A stretch of DNA of 64,000 bases from Stutzerimonas kunmingensis. Lineage in GTDB: Bacteria; Pseudomonadota; Gammaproteobacteria; Pseudomonadales; Pseudomonadaceae. The stretch lies in contig NZ_PISM01000018.1 of assembly GCF_002929225.1 (NCBI RefSeq), positions 62,001 to 126,000 on the forward strand, written 5' to 3'. The position numbers were made by a program, and so were the translations under genes. Positions 3,391 through 19,300 of this stretch are shown piece after piece. The notes under the pieces are model-generated. The model searched no databases, was not told the DNA's origin, and was given only the letters and a program-made list of their open reading frames with translations. How positions within the stretch are numbered: the stretch's first letter is position 1; each line of letters opens with the position of its first letter.

Positions 3391-4438
3391 ATGAAACGGT
3401 TTATCCAGGGTGAACACCGAGGTCAAAGCACCTTACTTCCCGAAAGCCTCGACGACTACGTCAGTGATACCATCCGGTACGTGTGGTCGATGTCTTCGTC
3501 GACGAGCTCGACCTAGGCACGCTAGGTTTTGATGGCGTCATTCCAGCTGAAACCGGAAGACCGGCTTACCACCCTGCGATCCTGCTGAAGATCTATATCT
3601 ACGGCTATCTAAACCGCATTCAATCGAGCCGGCGTCTTGAGCGAGAAGCTCAGCGCAACGTCGAACTCATGTCGTTAACCGGGCGATTGATGCCCGACTT
3701 CAAGACCATCGCCAACTTCCGAAAAGACAACAGCAAAGCCATTCGCGGCGCCTGCCGCCAGTTCGTTTTGCTCTGCCAGCAGCTGGGACTTTTTAGCGAA
3801 AACCTAGTTGCCATCGACGGCAGTAAATTCAAGGCGGTGAACAACCGCGACCGGAATTTCACCAGCGCCGAACTGAAGCGGCGCATGGAAGAAATAGAGA
3901 CGAGCATCAGCCGTTACTTGGCATCGCTCGATGCGGCTGATCGACAGAATCCTAGCGCCTCCGCGCCAGACACTGCCAGCCTGGAAGACAAAATCGCCAA
4001 GCTCAAAGCGCAGATGAAAGAGCTTCAGGGGATCGAAACTCAGCTCAACGATTCCCCTGACAAACAGGTTTCGCTGACCGACCCAGATGCCCGTTCGATG
4101 ATGACGCGCGGCAGCGGAGTTCAAAGTGCCAGAGTTGCGCGCTGAAAACCCAGTGCACGCTAAGCACAAATCGTCGCGTAAGGCGCTGGGAAAATGAGGC
4201 TGTGCTGGAGGAAATGCAGCGCCGGTTAAACCAAGCACCAGAGATGATGAAGGTTCGAAAACGGACTGTTGAGCATCCCTTCGGGACGCTCAAGCAGTGG
4301 ATGGGCGCAACGCACTTCCTGACCCGAAAGCTGAACGGGGTGAGTGCAGAAATGAGCTTGAATGTGCTTGCCTATAATTTGAAGCGGGTGATGAAAATCA
4401 TGGGTACCGAAGGCTTATTGAAGGCGATGACGGCGTAA
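3391..4438 (+). pseudogene. IS1182-family transposase, frameshifted and internally deleted
   Basis: Translation from ATG 3391 gives MKRFIQGEHRGQ and then LPESLDDYVSDT, the normal start of this family. A frame change near 3470 moves the reading to VRVVDVFVDELDLG, AYHPAILLKIYIYGYLNR, LMPDFKTIANFRKDN and FVLLCQQLGLF. After SLTDPDARSMMTRGSG (about 4115) the central catalytic part is missing, and the DNA resumes out of frame at a cysteine/arginine-rich stretch. It continues from 4202 with EMMKVRKRTVEHPFGTLKQW and the C-terminal GVSAEMSLNVLAYNLKR. At least two lesions are present, so no active transposase is made. Same strand as the flanking DJ-1 gene. Confidence 0.85.
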
Positions 4439-4629: not shown

Positions 4630-5544
4630 CTATGTCCCCAGGCCCTGGGGAAATAGCTTGGGGTTTGAGAAAGCCTGCTTAAGGTGGTCGTACACCAATC
4701 GCACCCGCTTCGATACAGGACCCTGCTGCGGGCGGTATATGAACAGATCCCATGGCGCTGGAGCGAGATCAGCCAAAACAGCAACCAGCTTTCCTGACCG
4801 CAGATGAGGCTCAGCCAGATAGGCAGGAATTTGGCCAAAACACATGCCTGCCAGGGTGGCTTCCAATTCCGTATCTGGATCATCACAGATAAGAGCTGGC
4901 TGCCTGGGCGTGAACGTTTGCCCGTCGGCAAATAGCCAAGGCCAAGGGCGGCCATTTTTCCGGTCGATCAGGACTGAAAGTGGCAGCTTAGCTAAGGCAT
5001 CCAAAGATTTAGGTGGTGTCTTTTGGCCTATGAGAGACGGGCACGCGACAACGTAAAACGGCACGGGAGCTAAGGCACGTGCAACGTAGCGCCGGTCGCG
5101 AATAACCCCCACCCTGATACCAATATCGATATGCGCCTCAACAGCATCAGTCATCTGATCTTCCAAGCGGAGATCGAATTGCAGGTCAGGATGTGCAGCG
5201 GCCAGGGGCTGAAGAAACGGTATCAGGAAGCGCCTGCCAATAGCATGTGGAGCCGTGATTCCCACCCTCCCTGACAGCTCAGGTTCCATCCTGTGCGACC
5301 GGAATAGCGTGTCGAAATGCTCCAGAGCTGATCTGGCATCTTTGGCGTAATCCTGACCGAAAGCAGTGATGCTCACCTGGCGGGTATTACGGTGAAACAG
5401 CGATTCGCCAAGCTCCGTTTCCAGGGCTTGAATGGCTCGGGTAACCCCTTGCGGGGAGATACCTAATCGGGTTGCCGCTTCGCGGAAGCTACCTGCCTCT
5501 GCTGCTGTGCAAAAAATCCTGACCATCTCCATGCGGTTAAGCAT
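4630..5544 (-). CDS. LysR-family transcriptional regulator
   Basis: A 304-residue LysR protein. The N-terminal winged helix is MVRIFCTAAEAGSFREAATR, then LGISPQGVTRAIQALETELG and LFHRNTRQVSITAFG. The substrate-binding part from about residue 90 begins LSGRVGITAPHAIGRRFLIP. The start ATG at 5544 follows a strong GAGAGG ribosome site 7 bp away. The gene is divergent from a short-chain dehydrogenase at 5689, and an inverted repeat TATTCC/GGAATA at 5560-5578 lies in the shared promoter. By the usual LysR logic it probably controls that dehydrogenase. The effector is unknown. Confidence 0.92.
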   Translation of the reverse strand: MLNRMEMVRIFCTAAEAGSFREAATRLGISPQGVTRAIQALETELGESLFHRNTRQVSITAFGQDYAKDARSALEHFDTLFRSHRMEPELSGRVGITAPHAIGRRFLIPFLQPLAAAHPDLQFDLRLEDQMTDAVEAHIDIGIRVGVIRDRRYVARALAPVPFYVVACPSLIGQKTPPKSLDALAKLPLSVLIDRKNGRPWPWLFADGQTFTPRQPALICDDPDTELEATLAGMCFGQIPAYLAEPHLRSGKLVAVLADLAPAPWDLFIYRPQQGPVSKRVRLVYDHLKQAFSNPKLFPQGLGT

Positions 5545-12860: not shown

Positions 12861-13757
12861 ATGGATCGCCTGACCCAGATGGCCACGTTCGTCAAAACAG
12901 TTGAGCTGGGTTCATTCAGCGCCGCTGCGGACGACCTGAATCTGTCCCCTCAATTGGTAGGGAAACAGGTGAAAATGCTCGAACAACATCTGGGTGTTTC
13001 CCTGCTGCACCGGACTACGCGCAGGCAAAGCCTCACCGACTTCGGCAGGGCGTTCTACCCGCGAGCAAAACTGATCCTTGCAGACATGCAGTCTGCCGAG
13101 AACCTGGCCGCCCTCACTCGGGGCACACCAAGCGGCCGCCTTCGCATCAACGCGCCGGTCACGTTCGGAATTCGCACGCTTTCGCCACGCCTGCTGGAAT
13201 ACATGGTTCGGTATCCTCAGGTGTCTGTTGACCTAACGTTATCGAACGAACTGGTCGATATCGTTGATGATGGTTACGACGTGGTATTTCGCATCGGCGA
13301 GCTGGTGAGCAGTGGGTTGAAGGCAGTGCCACTGGAGCCCTATCAGATGGTTTTATGCGCTGCGCCGTCCTATCTTGCACGTCGCCCTCCCATCATCAAT
13401 CCGTGGGATCTACAGCAGCAGGAGTGTCTGGGGTTTACCTATTCTGATGGCCGCTCACACTGGAGCTTCGACAGCCCGGAGGGGCGTATAGATGTTCCTA
13501 TTACAAGCAAATTAACGATCAATCAAGGTGATCCACTGCTGGCAGCGGCTGTAGCTGGTCTAGGTGTGGTTCTACAGCCGATAGAGTTGGTTAGCGATGC
13601 ACTGCGCGATGGGACACTGGTGCGTCTGTTGCCGCAGTACCCCGTGCCGAATACCGCAATGCACATCCTCTATACCCCTGACCGAAGAATGACTCCAAAG
13701 CTGCGCAGCTTCTTGGAGTTTGCGCGTGAGGCTTTTGGGCAGCGAGGCCCTCTCTAA
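12861..13757 (+). CDS. LysR-family transcriptional regulator
   Basis: A 298-residue LysR protein starting MDRLTQMATFVKTVELGSFS at ATG 12861, then LNLSPQLVGKQVKMLEQHLG, LLHRTTRRQSLTDFG and the sensor start GRLRINAPVTFGIRTLSPRL. This sequence places it in the CrgA/AaeR-like subgroup that often controls adjacent quinone reductases. An ATG or GTG further upstream would add an atypical leader. It is divergent from the quinone oxidoreductase at 11731-12723 with 137 bp between. It ends next to a truncated gene at 13766, so this pair is the last intact unit of the left accessory block. Confidence 0.92.
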   Translation: MDRLTQMATFVKTVELGSFSAAADDLNLSPQLVGKQVKMLEQHLGVSLLHRTTRRQSLTDFGRAFYPRAKLILADMQSAENLAALTRGTPSGRLRINAPVTFGIRTLSPRLLEYMVRYPQVSVDLTLSNELVDIVDDGYDVVFRIGELVSSGLKAVPLEPYQMVLCAAPSYLARRPPIINPWDLQQQECLGFTYSDGRSHWSFDSPEGRIDVPITSKLTINQGDPLLAAAVAGLGVVLQPIELVSDALRDGTLVRLLPQYPVPNTAMHILYTPDRRMTPKLRSFLEFAREAFGQRGPL

Positions 13758-13765
13758 CGCACGAA

Positions 13766-14032
13766 AATCAATGTCTGCGCTATCCGGTATTCGTAAAGGA
13801 CGACGATTACCGTGGCTCACCGGATATGACCAAGCACCCCTTGCTGAGGAAGTACCTGCTGGAGCACTTCGCGGCGGAAGTCGAAGAACTGAAGGATGCC
13901 GTGTTCGTTGGCCTGGGGCCGCAGGTCCATAAGGTGCTGGACCGCCTGATCCAGGAGCGGGTGAATCGCCCCATCCATTTTCGCACCTCGCGATTGAAAC
14001 CTGGAATCACACCAGGCAATCCTGCTCCATGA
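13766..14032 (+). pseudogene. Gene fragment, possibly uracil-DNA-glycosylase superfamily
   Basis: The frame reads CLRYPVFVKDDDYRGSPDM and then KHPLLRKYLLEHFAAEVEEL, DAVFVGLGPQVHKVLDRL. It is open with no proper start and turns into unrelated sequence after LIQERVNRP, ending at 14032. VFVGLGPQVHKVL is reminiscent of the strand and helix before the product site in uracil-DNA glycosylase-like proteins, but I am not certain of this. Both ends are missing. It looks like the cut edge of a gene that was interrupted when an element was inserted or deleted near the attachment site at 14365. Confidence 0.4.
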
Positions 14033-14283
14033 ACCTCAAACCGCAGTCAAAATAAGACCGTAAATTGAGTTGAGGTGATTATGATCGGGTGCCAACGGGA
14101 ACACCTTAGAAACCCAAGACGCCTCCCTAGATCATTGGTAACTTCAAACTCAGGAGCGTTTGGCTTCAACGCAGCCTAAACCCAACCGACTGCGGGCAGC
14201 TCTACTCGCCAACGCACGCAAAGCCACTCTCACAGATAGGTGACTGCGATGCTTGACAAGGCTCGAAAGGTTCATATACTCGC

Positions 14284-14345
14284 GCTCACTGTGAGCAATC
14301 CAACAAATCAAGGTTTCTTGCATAATGCGCTGAAGCCTTGATTTG
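14284..14345. repeat. Two inverted repeats next to the attachment site
   Basis: GCTCAC-T-GTGAGC (14284-14296) and CAAATCAAGG (14304-14313) with CCTTGATTTG (14336-14345) are both perfect. They lie 20-80 bp left of the attachment core and may be arm sites of a recombinase or a terminator of the left element. Confidence 0.45.
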
Positions 14346-14364
14346 GCCGGGATATTGAAGTTTG

Positions 14365-14390
14365 GGATTCAAATCCCCCCGGCTCCACCA
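14365..14390 (+). other. Integrase attachment site: 3' end of tmRNA (ssrA) without the gene
   Basis: The last 23 bases up to ACCA (14368-14390) agree with the 3' end of Pseudomonas tmRNA as I remember it, TTCAAATCC to GGCTCCACCA. The upstream half of the T stem is not the native one, and no tmRNA body (tag region, resume codon) precedes it, so this is an att copy, not ssrA. A P4-type integrase begins 170 bp downstream in the same orientation, the classic arrangement for ssrA-targeting islands such as CP4-57 of E. coli. The left neighbour is a truncated gene. A reversed copy of the 22-bp core lies at 9650-9671. Confidence 0.75.
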
Positions 14391-14435
14391 AATGCAAGTT
14401 TCCACATGTTCCCACATGACTGGAAACACCCTTAG

Positions 14436-14461
14436 AAGCCCCGCCCAGTGCGGGGTTTCTT
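14436..14461 (+). terminator. Rho-independent terminator after the attachment site
   Basis: AAGCCCCGC-CCAGT-GCGGGGTTT followed by CTT. It is placed as the terminator behind a tmRNA or tRNA would be, and may have travelled with the att site. Confidence 0.65.
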
Positions 14462-14505
14462 GTATCTACACGTCCCCCAACGCACCCACACACCATTGCC
14501 CTTCG

Positions 14506-14553
14506 TGTATCCCTCTGTGTATCCTTTGAATAAATTTGAACCAAAGGGATACA
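14506..14553. promoter_or_regulatory. TGTATCC repeats in the integrase leader
   Basis: TGTATCCCTCTG (14506-14517) and TGTATCCTTTG (14518-14528) are adjacent direct repeats. CAAAGGGATACA (14542-14553) is an inverted third copy that overlaps the ribosome site of the integrase. This is a candidate binding array for the AlpA-like regulator or the integrase itself. Confidence 0.5.
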
Positions 14554-14556
14554 GGC

Positions 14557-15795
14557 ATGAAGCGTAGCGAGATCAAACGCCGCCCCCTGGCCGATACCGT
14601 ACTCGCCGGCCTGGAACCGGAAGCAAAGGAATACCGGGAGCTGGATGGCGACGGGCTGTATTTCCGCGTGAAGCCGGATGGCTCGAAGTCCTGGCAGCTG
14701 CGCTACAAGAAAACGGACGGCAAATGGTCATGGCTGGGGCTGGGCGGCTATGGCACTGGCGATCATCAACTGACTGGTGAACAGGCCCGCAGAAAAGCCC
14801 GTGAGCTACGAGACGGCACCTCTAAAGGTGGCAGCATCATGGCAACCAAGCGTGCCAAGAAAGCAGCTGAGCTTGAAGCCGCCAATAGCTCCTTTGAACA
14901 TTTGTCACGCGAGTGGCACGCAACCAAGTGCAAGACTTGGTCCGAAGGTACGGCAGTTCGCACCATCGGCGCGCTTGAGAAGCATGTATTCCCCGTGTTC
15001 GGCAAACGGGCTTACACCGGCATCTTGCCAATGGAGTGGATGGAGTTCCTGCGTGGCATGGAGCAGACCGGGATCATTGAGCAGACAAGCCGGGTACGTG
15101 GCATGTGCCGAGAGATATATGACCTAGCTCGCGTCACTGGCAGAGCGACGCACAACCCGCTCGAAGGGCTGCACAAATTTCTACTGACCAAACCGGTGGA
15201 GAATTTTGCCCACGTATCCCTTGAGGAACTGCCCGCTTTGCTCAGGGCCATTCGCTCCTACCCCCATGCACCCGATGTCCGCATAGGCCTGCAACTGCTG
15301 ACGATGCTCGCCTGCCGACCATCCGAGCTGCGTGAGGCACACTGGGCGGAGTTTGATCTCGATGCTGGCCTCTGGCTGATCCCCGCCGAGCGTATGAAGC
15401 GCCGCCGCGACCATCTAGTGCCACTGCCTACTCAAGCAGTCGCCCTCTTACGCGAGCTGCAAAACATCACCGGCAACTATTCGCTGCTGTTTCCAGGCCG
15501 AGGCAACACAACCAAGCCACGCAGTAATACCGTGTTCCTGATGGCTTTACGTCGCCTGGGCTACGAAGGCCGACAGACCGGCCACGGCTTTCGCCATCTG
15601 GCCAGTACCATCCTCAACGAAAACGGCTTCGACTCGCAGCACGTCGAGGCCCAGCTCTCCCACGTTAAGGAAGGGGTGCGGGGCGTCTATGACAAGAGTA
15701 CCTATCTGGAACAGCGCAAGGTAATGATGCAGTGGTATGCCGATCATATGGACAAGCTAGCTAGTGGCAACGTAGTGGAGCTCAAGCGAGCGTAA
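14557..15795 (+). CDS. P4-type tyrosine recombinase (island integrase)
   Basis: A 412-residue integrase from ATG 14557 (MKRSEIKRRPLADTVLAGLE), chosen because AAAGGG lies 8 bp upstream; the start at 14536 has none. It has an N-terminal DUF4102-type arm-binding domain with YRELDGDGLYFRVKPDGSKS and WLGLGGYG. The core-binding domain contains FEHLSREWHATKCKTW. The catalytic domain has the Arg in QLLTMLACRPSELREAHWAE, HGFRHLAST (His-x-x-Arg), LSHV and the nucleophile Tyr in YDKSTYLEQRKVMM. All key residues are present, so the enzyme is probably active. The gene sits 166 bp from an ssrA-type att site. Downstream genes to 17734 form the rest of the small island. Confidence 0.95.
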   Translation: MKRSEIKRRPLADTVLAGLEPEAKEYRELDGDGLYFRVKPDGSKSWQLRYKKTDGKWSWLGLGGYGTGDHQLTGEQARRKARELRDGTSKGGSIMATKRAKKAAELEAANSSFEHLSREWHATKCKTWSEGTAVRTIGALEKHVFPVFGKRAYTGILPMEWMEFLRGMEQTGIIEQTSRVRGMCREIYDLARVTGRATHNPLEGLHKFLLTKPVENFAHVSLEELPALLRAIRSYPHAPDVRIGLQLLTMLACRPSELREAHWAEFDLDAGLWLIPAERMKRRRDHLVPLPTQAVALLRELQNITGNYSLLFPGRGNTTKPRSNTVFLMALRRLGYEGRQTGHGFRHLASTILNENGFDSQHVEAQLSHVKEGVRGVYDKSTYLEQRKVMMQWYADHMDKLASGNVVELKRA

Positions 15796-15885
15796 CGGTT
15801 CAGCGGCTGGTCTAGGCCGTGTCTTAAAGCAGCCCACTCCTGTCCGCCAACGTATTCAGAGCAGGTAGACCCGAAGAGCAAAGAT

Positions 15886-16635
15886 ATGGAAAGGTTTTTC
15901 AACTCCATGGAGTACATAGATCTCGGTATGGCATGCCAGTGGTTATGCCAGCTGACCGAGGCTCCGCATCCTCTGCCCGACAGCGCACTTATGGAGTTGT
16001 GCGAGCGTTATTCGACACCTGTTTACATCGACTGCGCTACGCTCGAAGGCGTCATCGCGCCGAGAATTGGAACTAGATTTGTTATGCAGCAGGTCATCGG
16101 CATAGAGCATTGCCAAGTCGACTCCCCTGTCTGTGCCTACCAGGCATTTGAACCACATAAAAGCGGCGGGATCGACGTGACAGGGATGGCGGTCCTACTT
16201 TCGGAACGAGATGAATTAGAGCAATCGCACGTTCACTCCTGGACACTGACGAACCAAGAGGGCAGACCATTCCTTTTCAGGCCAGGCGATATAAAACGAT
16301 TGGCATCGTTCCTCAAGCCTGACCAGGACGGAAAAGCAGCTCAAAGCCAGGTTCAGACAGAAAAAATTTCTGCGCCGAGAAGCTCCATATCCGAAGACCG
16401 CTTGGTATTTATTCGTCAGTGGTTTAGAGAGCAGCAAGAGCACACAACTGGTCGGTTATCAGAGCAAAAAACGGGTTTGCCTGGAGCTAGAGATGCGTGC
16501 TGGCAGTGGCTTAAGCACTTAGGCATGACCATCCCAGGTCAAATCTTTCATGGTGCTCTGCAGAAAAATAGTGACAAGACCAAAGTATTCATCAGTGCGT
16601 GGAACCTATTTCGCAAAGAAAGGATTTCGCGCTAG
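15886..16635 (+). CDS. Island protein of unknown function
   Basis: A 249-residue protein (MERFFNSMEYIDLGMACQWL at the start) that I do not recognise. The first 150 residues resemble a small alpha/beta domain that begins with a helical DLGMACQWLCQLTEA stretch, as seen in accessory proteins carried by P4-like islands. The second half contains FIRQWFREQQEHTTGR, a charged linker and a final WQWLKHLGMTIPGQIFHGAL. No transmembrane segment or signal peptide is visible. Base composition is lower in GC than the chromosome. It lies between integrase and AlpA-like gene, the place where islands keep replication or regulatory genes, but no function can be assigned. Confidence 0.7.
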   Translation: MERFFNSMEYIDLGMACQWLCQLTEAPHPLPDSALMELCERYSTPVYIDCATLEGVIAPRIGTRFVMQQVIGIEHCQVDSPVCAYQAFEPHKSGGIDVTGMAVLLSERDELEQSHVHSWTLTNQEGRPFLFRPGDIKRLASFLKPDQDGKAAQSQVQTEKISAPRSSISEDRLVFIRQWFREQQEHTTGRLSEQKTGLPGARDACWQWLKHLGMTIPGQIFHGALQKNSDKTKVFISAWNLFRKERISR

Positions 16636-16677
16636 ACCCAGAAATTAGGTCTGGCGGTCTAGTAGATTCGGGTCTAG
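16632..16677. promoter_or_regulatory. GGTCTAG repeats upstream of the AlpA-like gene
   Basis: CTAGACCC (16632-16639) is inverted against GGGTCTAG (16670-16677). A further GGTCTAG lies at 16656-16662, 15 bp before the last copy. The array sits 47 bp before the AlpA-like start and overlaps the 3' end of the preceding gene by a few bases. Likely operator. Confidence 0.5.
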
Positions 16678-16723
16678 TCAGTCGTCCGAAAGTACGCCCC
16701 GTAACCCATACGGAGGCGCTCAG

Positions 16724-16948
16724 ATGCACCCTACCCACCCCACGATTGACCAAGCTCTCATTCCCCAGCCCGAAGTCTGCAAGGTCATCGGCCAGACCCG
16801 CTCCGGGCTGGACAAGCTGCGCAAAAAAGACCCGACGTTCCCGAAACCCATCAAATTCAGCGATACCCGTCAGGCTGCCGCCTACTATGTGATCGCCGAG
16901 CTGAACGCCTGGCTCGCTGACAAGATCAAGGAACGTGATGCGGAGTAA
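16724..16948 (+). CDS. AlpA-like DNA-binding regulator
   Basis: A 74-residue protein, IPQPEVCKVIGQTRSGLDKL followed by DPTFPKPIKFSDTRQAAAYY and IAELNAWLADKIKERD. This is the MerR-like winged fold of the AlpA/excisionase family, where a regulator activates the integrase or acts as excision factor in P4-type islands (AlpA of CP4-57 is the model, and it controls an ssrA-targeting integrase). The usual W/Y after FP is present in modified form (TFPKPIKF). The gene ends 38 bp before the next start. Repeats at 16632-16677 lie upstream. Confidence 0.85.
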   Translation: MHPTHPTIDQALIPQPEVCKVIGQTRSGLDKLRKKDPTFPKPIKFSDTRQAAAYYVIAELNAWLADKIKERDAE

Positions 16949-16984
16949 TCCGCGTTGCGTCTACAGATCAGAGCCTGAATAACT

Positions 16985-17734
16985 ATGACCTCTCGTGTTA
17001 GCCGGCTGCTTAGCCGCAAAGCCGAAGTCAGTATCGAGTTTGGCCGGCTCGTTGTGCGCCAGCTCAACGGGGAAGAAGTGGGCCAAGACTTTCTGAAAAA
17101 ATACTCGCCGATTCTCCTGCGCGAGATTCTGACCGCGTTAGAGATAGAAGCATACGAATACCGCAGCTACAAAACAGGTTATTACGGCAGGTCAAAGCAT
17201 GCAGGGATATCCCTACAATTCACCTCCGTCATAGCGGACGAAAGCACTTACACCATTTTCAACGTTGGCCTAACTCGCATTCGCAACACCAACAGCGGAA
17301 AGGCAGGTTCACCACTACCGAAGGGGCACTTCATTGTTACCGAACGTGGTGAGTTCTATAAGTTTTGGAAATTTACAGCACTCGCCATCCCCAAAAGCCT
17401 CACATCGTTTCACGACTACATGGGCAAACTCAAAGGCATGCTGTACACAGCAATCCTGACTGAAGACCGCGATGATGGCCGAATGGTTAAAGGTTCAATA
17501 AGACCGTTGTTCATCTCTGCTGACCTGGTTAGGAAAGCATTTTTGCCGGAAAACTCTCGGATAACAGCCGGATATGGACCGGATAACCTCCGGATAAAAA
17601 ACCCGGATAGGGATTTGGCTACAGGCCATGCGCTACGCGGCTTTCAGCCGAAATCAACTACGGGCGATCAATACTACGGTAAAGCGGTAATCAGGAAGAG
17701 CGATGACACGGGGCCTAGTGTCCCGAGCGGGTAG
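16985..17734 (+). CDS. Island protein of unknown function carrying internal iterons
   Basis: A 249-residue protein I do not recognise. It starts MTSRVSRLLSRKAEVSIEFG, has a tyrosine-rich part YEYRSYKTGYYGRSKHAGIS, then PKGHFIVTERGEFYKFWKF and FHDYMGKLKGMLYTAILTED. No signal peptide or membrane segment is visible. Its length, basic character and position after an AlpA-like regulator resemble initiators or accessory genes of small satellites, but that is inference only. The DNA at 17558-17609 carries five CGGATA repeats, four at exact 11-bp steps, which do not correspond to a repeated protein motif. They are therefore a DNA-level signal inside the gene. The end at 17734 is the last recognisable island gene. 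Confidence 0.7.
   Translation: MTSRVSRLLSRKAEVSIEFGRLVVRQLNGEEVGQDFLKKYSPILLREILTALEIEAYEYRSYKTGYYGRSKHAGISLQFTSVIADESTYTIFNVGLTRIRNTNSGKAGSPLPKGHFIVTERGEFYKFWKFTALAIPKSLTSFHDYMGKLKGMLYTAILTEDRDDGRMVKGSIRPLFISADLVRKAFLPENSRITAGYGPDNLRIKNPDRDLATGHALRGFQPKSTTGDQYYGKAVIRKSDDTGPSVPSG
17558..17609 (+). repeat. Five CGGATA iterons, four at exact 11-bp period
   Basis: Copies start at 17558, 17569, 17580, 17591 and 17604. Steps are 11, 11, 11 and 13 bp. The motif is preceded by C in the last four copies. The array is followed by A-rich DNA (17596-17602) and GATAGGGATTTGG. Period and direct orientation fit one protein per helical turn, as at iteron origins or cooperative operators. Confidence 0.85.
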
Positions 17735-17798
17735 TTCGTTTATTTAACAACATATCGATATACTGGCGCGACTCCAAAGCCACTGATTAATAACCCAC

Positions 17799-17948
17799 AT
17801 GGCCAAACCCGCCGCCTGCTTTGTCTTAACGCCGTCCGACAACGAGCTCTCCGCCAAGCCATTCAAATGGAACAAAACGGCTGAATCGATCATCAGCTCA
17901 GTCCACAAAGCTAAACTTGGCGCGATGAAAAATAGATTATTGAACTAA
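17799..17948 (+). pseudogene. 49-residue ORF, possible IS630-type transposase C-terminus
   Basis: ATG 17799 to TAA 17948 reads MAKPAACFVLTPSDNELSAK and then PFKWNKTAESIISSVHKAKLG. The pattern KPFKWNKTAESI resembles the C-terminal PFVWTKTADEIL block of IS630-type transposases, which would make this a remnant. It ends where the truncated receptor begins. The identification is weak. Confidence 0.35.
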
Positions 17949-17950
17949 CC

Positions 17951-19300
17951 GCTCAGGCCACTAGTGCCGCGAACGGCTATGACGACGAGCTTCGCTTCGA
18001 GCGCGAACAGATCGCCCTGACCCACACCGGCCGCCTCGGCTTCGGCACGCTGGATTCCAGCCTGATGCACAACACCACCGAAACCTTCGGCCGGACCATT
18101 CCCGGCACCATCGGTGCGCCGACCGCCGTACCCGGGGCAATCGGCGGCGACGATCGCGAGCTGGAAACCACCAACCTGGTCTTCGACACCAAGCTGGTTG
18201 CCCCGATCGGCGAATCGCACATCGCCACCGTAGGCGGCCAATGGTGGAAAGCCGAAATGACCGATGGCATCGCCCAGACGGAATTCGAGCAGAAGACCTG
18301 GGCACTGTTTGCCGAAGATGAGTGGCGCCTGCGCGATGATCTGGCCCTGACCCTGGGCGCCCGCTATGACGACCACGAGTCCTTTGGTGGACATGTCAGC
18401 CCGAGGGCTTACCTGGTCTGGAACACCACCGACAACTGGACCCTCAAGGGCGGCATCAGCAAGGGCTACAAGACGCCGGACCTGAACGACCTGCACGGCG
18501 GCATCAATGGCGTAACCGGCCAGGGCTCCATCATCACCATCGGCAACCCGGACCTGGACCCCGAAACGACCGCCAGTACCGAGATCGGTGCCTATTTCGA
18601 CAGCCTGACCGGCTTCAGCGCCAACGCCACGCTGTTCCACAACAAGTTCAAGGACAAGATCGCCAGCGGCGACCCGATCACCGATCCACTGTGCGCAGGC
18701 AACAACAACGGCACCTGCTCGCAGCAGATCAACGTCGACGAAGCGGTGACCCGTGGCCTGGAGCTGGCTGGCAGCTGGCAGTTCGCACCAGCCTGGAAAC
18801 TGAGCGCCAACTACACCTACACCGACAGCGAGCAGAAGAGTGGCGATAACCAGGGAGAGCCGCTGACCAACACGCCCGAACACCTGGCCAACGCCAAACT
18901 CGACTGGCAGACCACCGACCGTCTGGGCCTGTGGCTGAAGAGCGAGTACCGCGGTGAGCGCGCGCGCTTCACCTCCAGCTACGAGAATCTCGCTAACGCC
19001 AACGGCAGCTACTCCACCAGCCAGTCGATCTACGACACGCTGGGCAAGAACGCCAAGGCATACACGCTGTTTCACCTAGGCGGGTCGTATCGGGCTACGG
19101 AGAACCTGACGCTCAACGCGACGATCTACAACCTCTTCGACAAGGACTTCGTCGACGGCAAGGCCTACACCACCTATTCCAATGGCGGGAGCGCAAACGG
19201 CACGGCCTACGGCACCGACTACAGCCACTCCGGCGCCGCCACCACCGGTATCGTGGAAGAAGGCCGCCGCCTATGGCTGTCAGCCAACCTGACCTTCTGA
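17951..19300 (+). pseudogene. TonB-dependent siderophore receptor, N-terminally truncated
   Basis: About 445 residues of a TonB-dependent outer-membrane receptor beta-barrel remain, from YDDELRFEREQIALTHTGRL to the terminal EGRRLWLSANLTF with final Phe. Barrel strands such as WALFAEDEWRLRDDLALTLG, GARYDDHESFGGHVSPRAYL, ISKGYKTPDLNDLHGG and NPDLDPETTASTEIGAYFD are typical of FepA/CirA-like receptors. Signal peptide, TonB box and plug domain (about 200-250 residues) are absent because the reading frame starts in island-edge DNA. It ends with a strong terminator. It precedes the PepSY/DUF2271/DUF4198/reductase genes, so the intact receptor was probably their partner. Non-functional unless the missing part lies elsewhere. 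Confidence 0.85.

Follow-up and report, generated by a model that had tools for sequence, protein, structure and literature searches.

In phage lambda, the iterons lie inside the gene of the initiator, O, behind the codons for its DNA-binding domain. A related arrangement is described for the RepA-ori pair of PLE in Vibrio cholerae, where, according to passages of PMC8263062 and PMC7145576, the initiator's DNA-binding domain covaries with the origin iterons, the remainder of the protein stays conserved, and modules have been exchanged. Islands that carry hardly more than an integrase, AlpA and defense cargo are often found without a known replication module. Here, we describe gene X, a candidate for such a module, in which a single gene would be both initiator and origin.

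The array in gene X and its island

The window we analyzed is a 64,000-nucleotide stretch of Stutzerimonas kunmingensis DNA, in which gene X, the proposed initiator, occupies positions 16985 to 17734 of the + strand (249 codons in the window). An earlier note on this DNA had reported five copies of CGGATA within 52 bp, four of them at 11-bp steps, and this was confirmed, with + strand copies at 17558, 17569, 17580, 17591, and 17604 and gaps of 11, 11, 11, and 13, the fifth copy thus lying 13 bp further on. The count of five held for the exact copies but not for the complete array, which has six 8-bp units (17546–17610, + strand, in the 3' part of X) starting at 17546, 17557, 17568, 17579, 17590, and 17603, with gaps of 11, 11, 11, 11, and 13; the first unit, CCGGAAAA (17546–17553), is degenerate and lies 11 bp upstream of the CGGATA copies. 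In 200 first-order Markov simulations of the 64-kb window, no 52-bp stretch held more than two CGGATA, and TRF described the array as 3.6 copies of period 11. The exact three-copy CGGATA pattern occurs at a single place in the window's genome (two overlapping matches), and a control pattern occurs nowhere. As a further control, we kept the protein and shuffled the same codons among synonymous sites; the six-unit score of window X was 0.842, the best permuted version scored 0.758, and none of 1000 reached the window's score. An A-rich stretch, AAAAAA at 17596 to 17601, adjoins the array; it had been counted as part of the pattern, a claim we dropped because relatives do not conserve it.

The label of an ssrA-type island, given earlier, fits this locus. 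A 14-bp tmRNA-end sequence, CCCCGGCTCCACCA, is present at 14377 to 14390 (+) on the attachment-site side of the island, as a position match; the same sequence is the direct repeat of tmRNA islands in passages of PMC12595487, and the intact tmRNA gene is found on a different contig (G000:C1). Behind it on the + strand come a tyrosine integrase (14536–15795; Pfam Phage_integrase, E 2e-20, with Phage_int_M and Arm-DNA-bind_3), a 249-aa protein with no Pfam match at E<=1 (15886–16635), to which ORFs of 249 and 253 aa in the corresponding position of L006 and G258 are similar, and an AlpA-like small DNA-binding protein (16724–16948). The last matches PHROG 66, excisionase/regulator, at E 0.0019 and Pfam Phage_AlpA at E 0.055, below that model's cut-off. 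No Rfam match at E<=1 was found within 13500 to 18500, and the window's island showed no capsid or packaging gene. At other places of this genome, G000:C13:197071-198279 is 66% alike over the integrase region and G000:C6:430627-430824 is 74% alike over the alpA region, and these stretches are perhaps parts of further islands.

The same setting recurs in relatives. In a pattern search of the 20 loci whose upstream sequence extends to 2.5 kb or more, 19 had an ORF with integrase motifs within 3.2 kb upstream of X; the sole miss was G115, which has no integrase within the stretch read. An AlpA-like motif was found, also by pattern search, in 11 of 33 loci, 12 of the 33 having only 1.5 kb of upstream sequence, and wherever the AlpA-like gene was found, X stood directly behind it. 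In five tmRNA islands that we measured, the array lies ∼2.8 to 3.2 kb from the tmRNA-end att sequence. The cargo behind X differs: type I restriction (R) and McrBC in L006 (PGZJ01000019.1, a metagenome-assembled gammaproteobacterium whose X and coordinates are identical to those of G230 and which we treat as one genome with it); capsid, protease, portal, TerL, and connector in L106; capsid, protease, and tape measure protein in L107; and other cargo elsewhere. Among the proteins scanned from L104, L106, and L107, a subset of their genes, Pfam recognized no primase, helicase, or helicase-loader. The gene behind X in L104 (3413–4321, +), also found behind X in L103, encodes 303 aa with a weak match to HTH_23/sigma-region-4.

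Relatives of X, their arrays and a second DNA block

A search with window X matched 4 of 56 genus genomes, and a four-row profile found X in 17 of 398 family genomes (5 of 19 genera) and in 12 of 390 order genomes (7 of 142 genera), the window's own genome counted each time; these proportions of carriers come from genome samples, and the group as a whole is probably Pseudomonas-like. A model of the array plus the block described below gave strong matches in 17 of 398 family genomes, exactly the 17 with X, and six more weak matches (18–21 bits, E about 0.001–0.009). Searching viral contigs with the X of L104, which is identical to the X of G173, yielded four loci (L104–L107). Two of these are contigs from a scan for the 11-11-13 signature, which hit three viral contigs, two of them with X homologues, and was the only informative signature. 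CGGATA triplets as a general phage motif were rejected: 17 viral-contig stretches carried them at 11 bp, compared with 23 for the reversed pattern, so that the viral triplets reflect chance or unrelated repeats. Viral-contig searches with window X and with A1 gave no relative, tblastn with window X or L104 X found no homologue in phage or plasmid records, and the array DNA gave two short, weak matches in phage records.

We scored the array in 32 of 33 frames (17 family genes, 11 order, 4 viral; G664 was left out), among which the near-duplicates are win/G230/G048, G147/G172, G173/L104/L105, G362/G265, and G560a/b. An array with gaps of 11, 11, 11, 11, and 13 at the same place beat 20 codon-permuted versions in 31 of 32 frames, the exception being G463, a distant relative without a detectable array. 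The last gap of 13 was the best among 10 to 15 in 29 of 32 frames (not in G463, G115, or G149; in the latter two a gap of 14 fits slightly better), and in a free scan of periods 8 to 23 the period 11 was the best in 27 of 29 frames (neither in G463 nor in the contig-end fragment G664). The letters of the core vary by lineage, and the units within an array change as a set. The core is CCGGATAA in L006, the window, and G035; CCGGACAA in G362, G265, G173, G377, and others; CCAGATAA in G098; CCCGACAA in G709 and G676; CCCGATAA in G592; CCGGGTAA in G412 and G756; GGGCACAA in L106 and L107; and GGGGAAAA-like in G115 and G149. Individual units stray from the consensus in many genes, for example in G258, G639, and G453.

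Homologues had been expected to show the same iterons at the same place; place and spacing are kept, whereas the core letters differ by lineage. Conserved protein with scrambled repeats, the outcome that the earlier note had named as speaking against it, is the opposite of what the relatives show, and its statement that the repeats act as DNA rather than as a protein repeat is supported by relatives that keep the spacing while the letters change in concert. Many of the core changes are nonsynonymous (PDN-RI-GY in the window vs PDN-RT-GQ in G362), which suggests that the DNA takes the lead and the protein adapts. The tail amino acids of X change along with the DNA core, and, if the array is an origin, this would be a clear case of a protein sequence bent to carry one.

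A second conserved DNA block (AACTACGGG...ACTACGGTAAAGCGGTAATCAGG; 17656–17695, +) lies 110 bp from the first unit. Across relatives it reads AACTACGTG or a close variant at that same distance, which is 111 bp in the frame-broken G048. When searched with a degenerate pattern, 29 of 31 arrays had the block at +110/111; in the other two, G306 and G130, GACTACG occupies that position. Most relatives continue with a second ACTACGG-like word and GGTAA words, and G115 and G149 keep the same block DNA in a different reading frame. Mean A+T peaks at the block, at 0.61 for +120..+150 compared with 0.42 to 0.53 in the other 30-bp bins (24 genes); with the best 30-bp bin averaging 0.61 over these 24 genes, there is no clear sign of a strongly A+T-rich unwinding element near the array.

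Some related elements carry replication genes or only part of X. The 16 kb, satellite-sized P. aeruginosa record vB_Pae_U1 (PP003913.1, L136) shares an integrase (69% identical to L104), a reverse-strand gene (45%, L107), and AlpA/Cox (53%, L107) with X elements, and in X's region it has an annotated "replication protein O" (155 aa) and "DNA primase". This supports the replication link proposed earlier for the host gene, since here replication genes stand in place of X. At about 4160 to 4290, vB_Pae_U1 has four copies of GGTACAGAAACTGTACC (one with one mismatch) that begin within the last part of the O gene and extend into the gene after it; these may be another in-gene iteron origin. In the two islands of G560 (L131 8981–9412, −; and L132), the first part of X is missing; an upstream gene 42% identical to the vB_Pae_U1 O protein is followed by four GGCCGCCACACGG repeats, and 3' of these X's array, block, and tail remain, a predicted composite origin. 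Finally, the tailed-phage-like contig L101 (IMGVR_UViG_3300025896_000166) has four iterons and the second block at 5131 to 5255 (−) without X's first part; this array may be a relic, a captured origin, or a decoy.

The proposed reading part of X and the probable role of the array

We compared distances between iteron profiles with distances between parts of X in 25 of the 33 frames, leaving out G592 and G649 (short N terminus), G463 (no array), G664 (contig end), and G147, L104, G560a, and G560b (duplicates or without the N terminus). The correlation was 0.61 (n = 25) for X residues 121 to 185, and it was weak for residues 1 to 95 (0.27) and 209 to 248 (0.29), although the latter are coded as near the array as 121 to 185. 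Given residues 1 to 95, the partial r of 121 to 185 was 0.60 (p 0.0002; the reverse was −0.24), and given 209 to 248 it was 0.56 (p 0.0002; reverse −0.10). The value given residues 1 to 95 was 0.58 (p 0.0002, n = 21) without four near-duplicates and 0.37 (p 0.003, n = 17) when the four G-type cores were removed as well, leaving C-type cores only. Since the array adjoins the reading part, the covariation could partly reflect linkage. With CCGGA- and CCCGA-type cores, the second helix of this part is mostly FHDYMG or FHDCMG; it is FHK/FYK with GGGCACAA, FHR with GGGGAAAA, and F[GS]D with CCGGGTAA.

G265 and L107 are 97% identical over X residues 1 to 95 and 57% over 96 to 190, and their cores are CCGGACAA and GGGCACAA, respectively. 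Per 30 nt, the identity of the two genes is 0.77 to 1.0 before nt 390, 0.47 to 0.60 from 390 to 600, 0.73 at 600, and then 0.77 to 0.93; G362, which is close to G265, gave a similar course against L107 (0.63–1.0, 0.47–0.60, 0.70–0.97). To judge from these alignments, the reading part and the array differ together between like flanks in a cassette swap, the one clean case we have. L105 and L106 also differ in their cores (CCGGACAA vs GGGCACAA), but their genes diverge over a longer stretch from nt 180; their integrases are 96% identical. Likewise, the AlpA proteins of G230, G035, G258, and G098 are 83 to 93% identical, with three different cores among them, and the integrases of three of these are 89 to 91% identical despite differing cores. 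By these comparisons, the core follows X residues about 121 to 185 and not the rest of X, AlpA, or the integrase. The earlier suggestion that the host gene encodes the protein that binds the array thereby becomes likely.

The protein matches no known initiator family in Pfam, NCBIfam, PDB, or PHROG. Window X has no Pfam match at E<=1, RepA_N included, no NCBIfam or PDB sequence match, and a best PHROG E of 0.12; X of L104 and L107 has no Pfam match at E<=0.01, RepA_N again included; and no PHROG replication-O match was obtained for X of the window, L104, or L106. Structure models of X are weak (pLDDT 62; 39 in a second run). In the pLDDT 62 model, helices 123 to 131 and 142 to 147 form a helix-turn-helix-like pair, and, from the covariation and this moderate model, we propose codons 121 to 190 (17345–17554, +) as an HTH-like specificity part; the region encoded by the array is predicted to be disordered. 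Foldseek gave a best E of 0.16 against PDB and 1e-3 against BFVD. The best VIA-align match was PrgE (Z 6.9), listed with a DNA-bound structure, followed by rows that we take to be OB-fold proteins; as a lead only, this model hints at an OB-like fold rather than a classical winged-helix, and the lack of other matching folds carries no weight. A DEWLADY-like C-terminal tail is present in 29 of 33 frames, the misses being the cut window copy, G048 and G649 (broken or short), and G037, whose KEWLADF escapes the pattern.

The window copy is cut: its X departs from L006 at 17719, directly after CTAG, and its frame leaves the relatives after about codon 245, so that the conserved C-terminal tail is absent. 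Similar inverted ends (TGTCCCGAGCGGGTAGTTC / TGGCCTGAGCGGTTAGTTC) with CTAG on both sides mark the insertion-sequence ends at 17719 to 17964. The segment to 17960 consists of two end pieces that meet at 17839/17840, with CTAG again after 17960, and both pieces occur apart elsewhere in the genome, three of the places being the contig ends C9, C14, and C15. The end of contig C15 carries the right-hand piece and, after it, the remaining part of X together with restriction cargo that is 93% identical to L006. From the inverted ends, the separate end pieces, and the remainder of X at C15, an insertion sequence probably entered X, and the left half of X was probably joined to a TonB-receptor fragment through rearrangement or an assembly join; this join is not part of the origin. 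The idea of an island able to copy itself therefore probably does not carry over to the window's own copy, which, with X cut at the join, is probably unable to start replication by itself, that is, dead or dependent on help in trans.

We consider it probable, at roughly three in four, that X is the replication initiator of an integrative island or phage satellite and that the array within its gene serves as its iteron origin. The integrase and AlpA would excise the island, as excision has been demonstrated for other AlpA satellites such as PICMI (in a passage of PMC10803314). X would then use residues about 121 to 185 to bind the six iterons, which follow one another at close to a helical turn, a contact we infer from the covariation and the cassette swap. 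The bound array would act on the second block at its fixed distance, which, as the most A+T-rich DNA nearby, is likely a melting or second binding site, and the unstructured tail of X, ending in a conserved [DE]EWLxxY-like peptide, would recruit host or helper replication enzymes. The origin would sit directly behind the codons for X's DNA-reading part, and with reader and sites adjacent in one gene, one recombination of ∼230 bp could change both. We lean, by a small margin over even odds, to the fuller proposal that X is an undescribed initiator family, without an island primase or helicase, with its specificity domain and origin in one such ∼230 bp cassette.

An autoregulatory role, in which X would occupy the array within its gene so as to repress or time its own transcription or that of the cargo and have no part in replication, is an unlikely alternative: the covariation with residues 121 to 185 marks a reader-site pair without specifying its purpose, and a place directly behind the AlpA-like gene, where that gene was found, is regulator-like. 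The array, however, is separated from the start of X by more than 500 bp of coding sequence, and mechanical ORF calling puts a convergent frame first behind X in 7 of 14 loci, so that no promoter follows for the array there. Nor does autoregulation explain why a second block is conserved at a set distance or why vB_Pae_U1 has replication genes. Helically phased excisionase sites occur in phages, and the one-turn spacing would suit a cooperative excisionase filament, with AlpA-like and Int genes nearby; we nevertheless regard it as highly improbable that the array serves excision by binding the AlpA-like excisionase or integrase arm domains. AlpA (83–93%) and Int (89–91%) are nearly constant across islands with differing cores, L105 and L106 share 96% of Int with CCGGACAA in one and GGGCACAA in the other, and the array lies about 2.8 to 3.2 kb from att in the five islands rather than beside it.

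Of comparably low probability, if marginally less remote, is that the array is an incompatibility or helper-recognition site, bound or cut for example by a helper-phage factor, and not a replication start. According to a passage of PMC8263062, the origin iterons of PLE satellites are also recognized by a phage nuclease, and L101 has four units plus the second block but lacks the first part of X; that contig, however, is a single one and may be a relic, and helper recognition leaves the covariation with X unexplained. Least credible of all is that protein evolution produced the array as a by-product, through repeated codons in a low-complexity disordered tail (PDN/RI/GY). The region is predicted to be disordered, and disordered tails can hold repeats, but the period of 11 is out of frame, the units co-change between lineages with nonsynonymous changes included, and relatives that read the second block in another frame still keep it. 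As 31 of 32 genes beat their codon-permuted versions, these controls already refute it, as far as sequence can.

If reader and origin do form one cassette, a single recombination would make a new matched initiator-origin pair, which could free an island at once from incompatibility or from attack aimed at its origin. The natural core changes would provide a ready code of about 65 residues against an 8-bp site, which makes the specificity of the reader directly testable, and the motif of six units at 11, 11, 11, 11, and 13 with the block at +110 could be used to find more such elements.

Comparison with known systems

We found no description of X or its proposed in-gene origin in the open-licence literature searched, and, as far as searched, the protein family and the in-gene cassette appear to be new. 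Among the closest known islands are the Pseudomonas tmRNA islands I23/I44/I55, which, in passages of PMC12595487, share the 14-bp tmRNA repeat, an IntY-like integrase, and AlpA with the window, and carry defense cargo as X islands do (type I restriction and McrBC in L006). In I23/I44/I55, unlike in X islands, AlpA stands at the 3' end with YqaJ/RadC genes, and the word "iteron" is absent from the main text of that paper.

PICI and cf-PICI, as described in parts of PMC6092414 and PMC10111431, resemble X islands in their int - alpA - replication gene - ori order, small size, iterons beside the rep gene, and, in some, capsid genes. The window's island matches PICI/cf-PICI in having an integrase and AlpA-type regulator upstream of the proposed replication gene, and L106 and L107 match cf-PICI in having capsid and packaging genes. 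According to the same parts of these papers, the PICI ori lies 3' of the pri/rep gene and has two iteron sets flanking an A+T-rich region; in X islands, by contrast, the array is coding sequence, and no primase was recognized among the proteins scanned. vB_Pae_U1 has a related integrase, reverse-strand gene, and AlpA/Cox, carries repeats at the 3' terminus of the O gene, and differs from X elements in having replication protein O and primase in place of X.

By analogy, the general kind, an initiator-origin pair that is in-gene or covarying, is already known from lambda O and from PLE RepA-ori. Like lambda O-type initiators, X has an iteron array inside its own coding sequence; lambda O has longer, palindromic iterons, whereas X has 8-bp cores at 11/13 bp, no Pfam match, and no helicase-loader recognized among the satellite proteins scanned. 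With PLE RepA-ori, as presented in passages of PMC8263062 and PMC7145576, X shares a reading domain that covaries with the iterons and modules that are swapped; in PLE, however, the ori is intergenic and RepA is a RepA_N protein, whereas X is a different protein and its origin would lie in the gene, with reader and site forming one continuous cassette.
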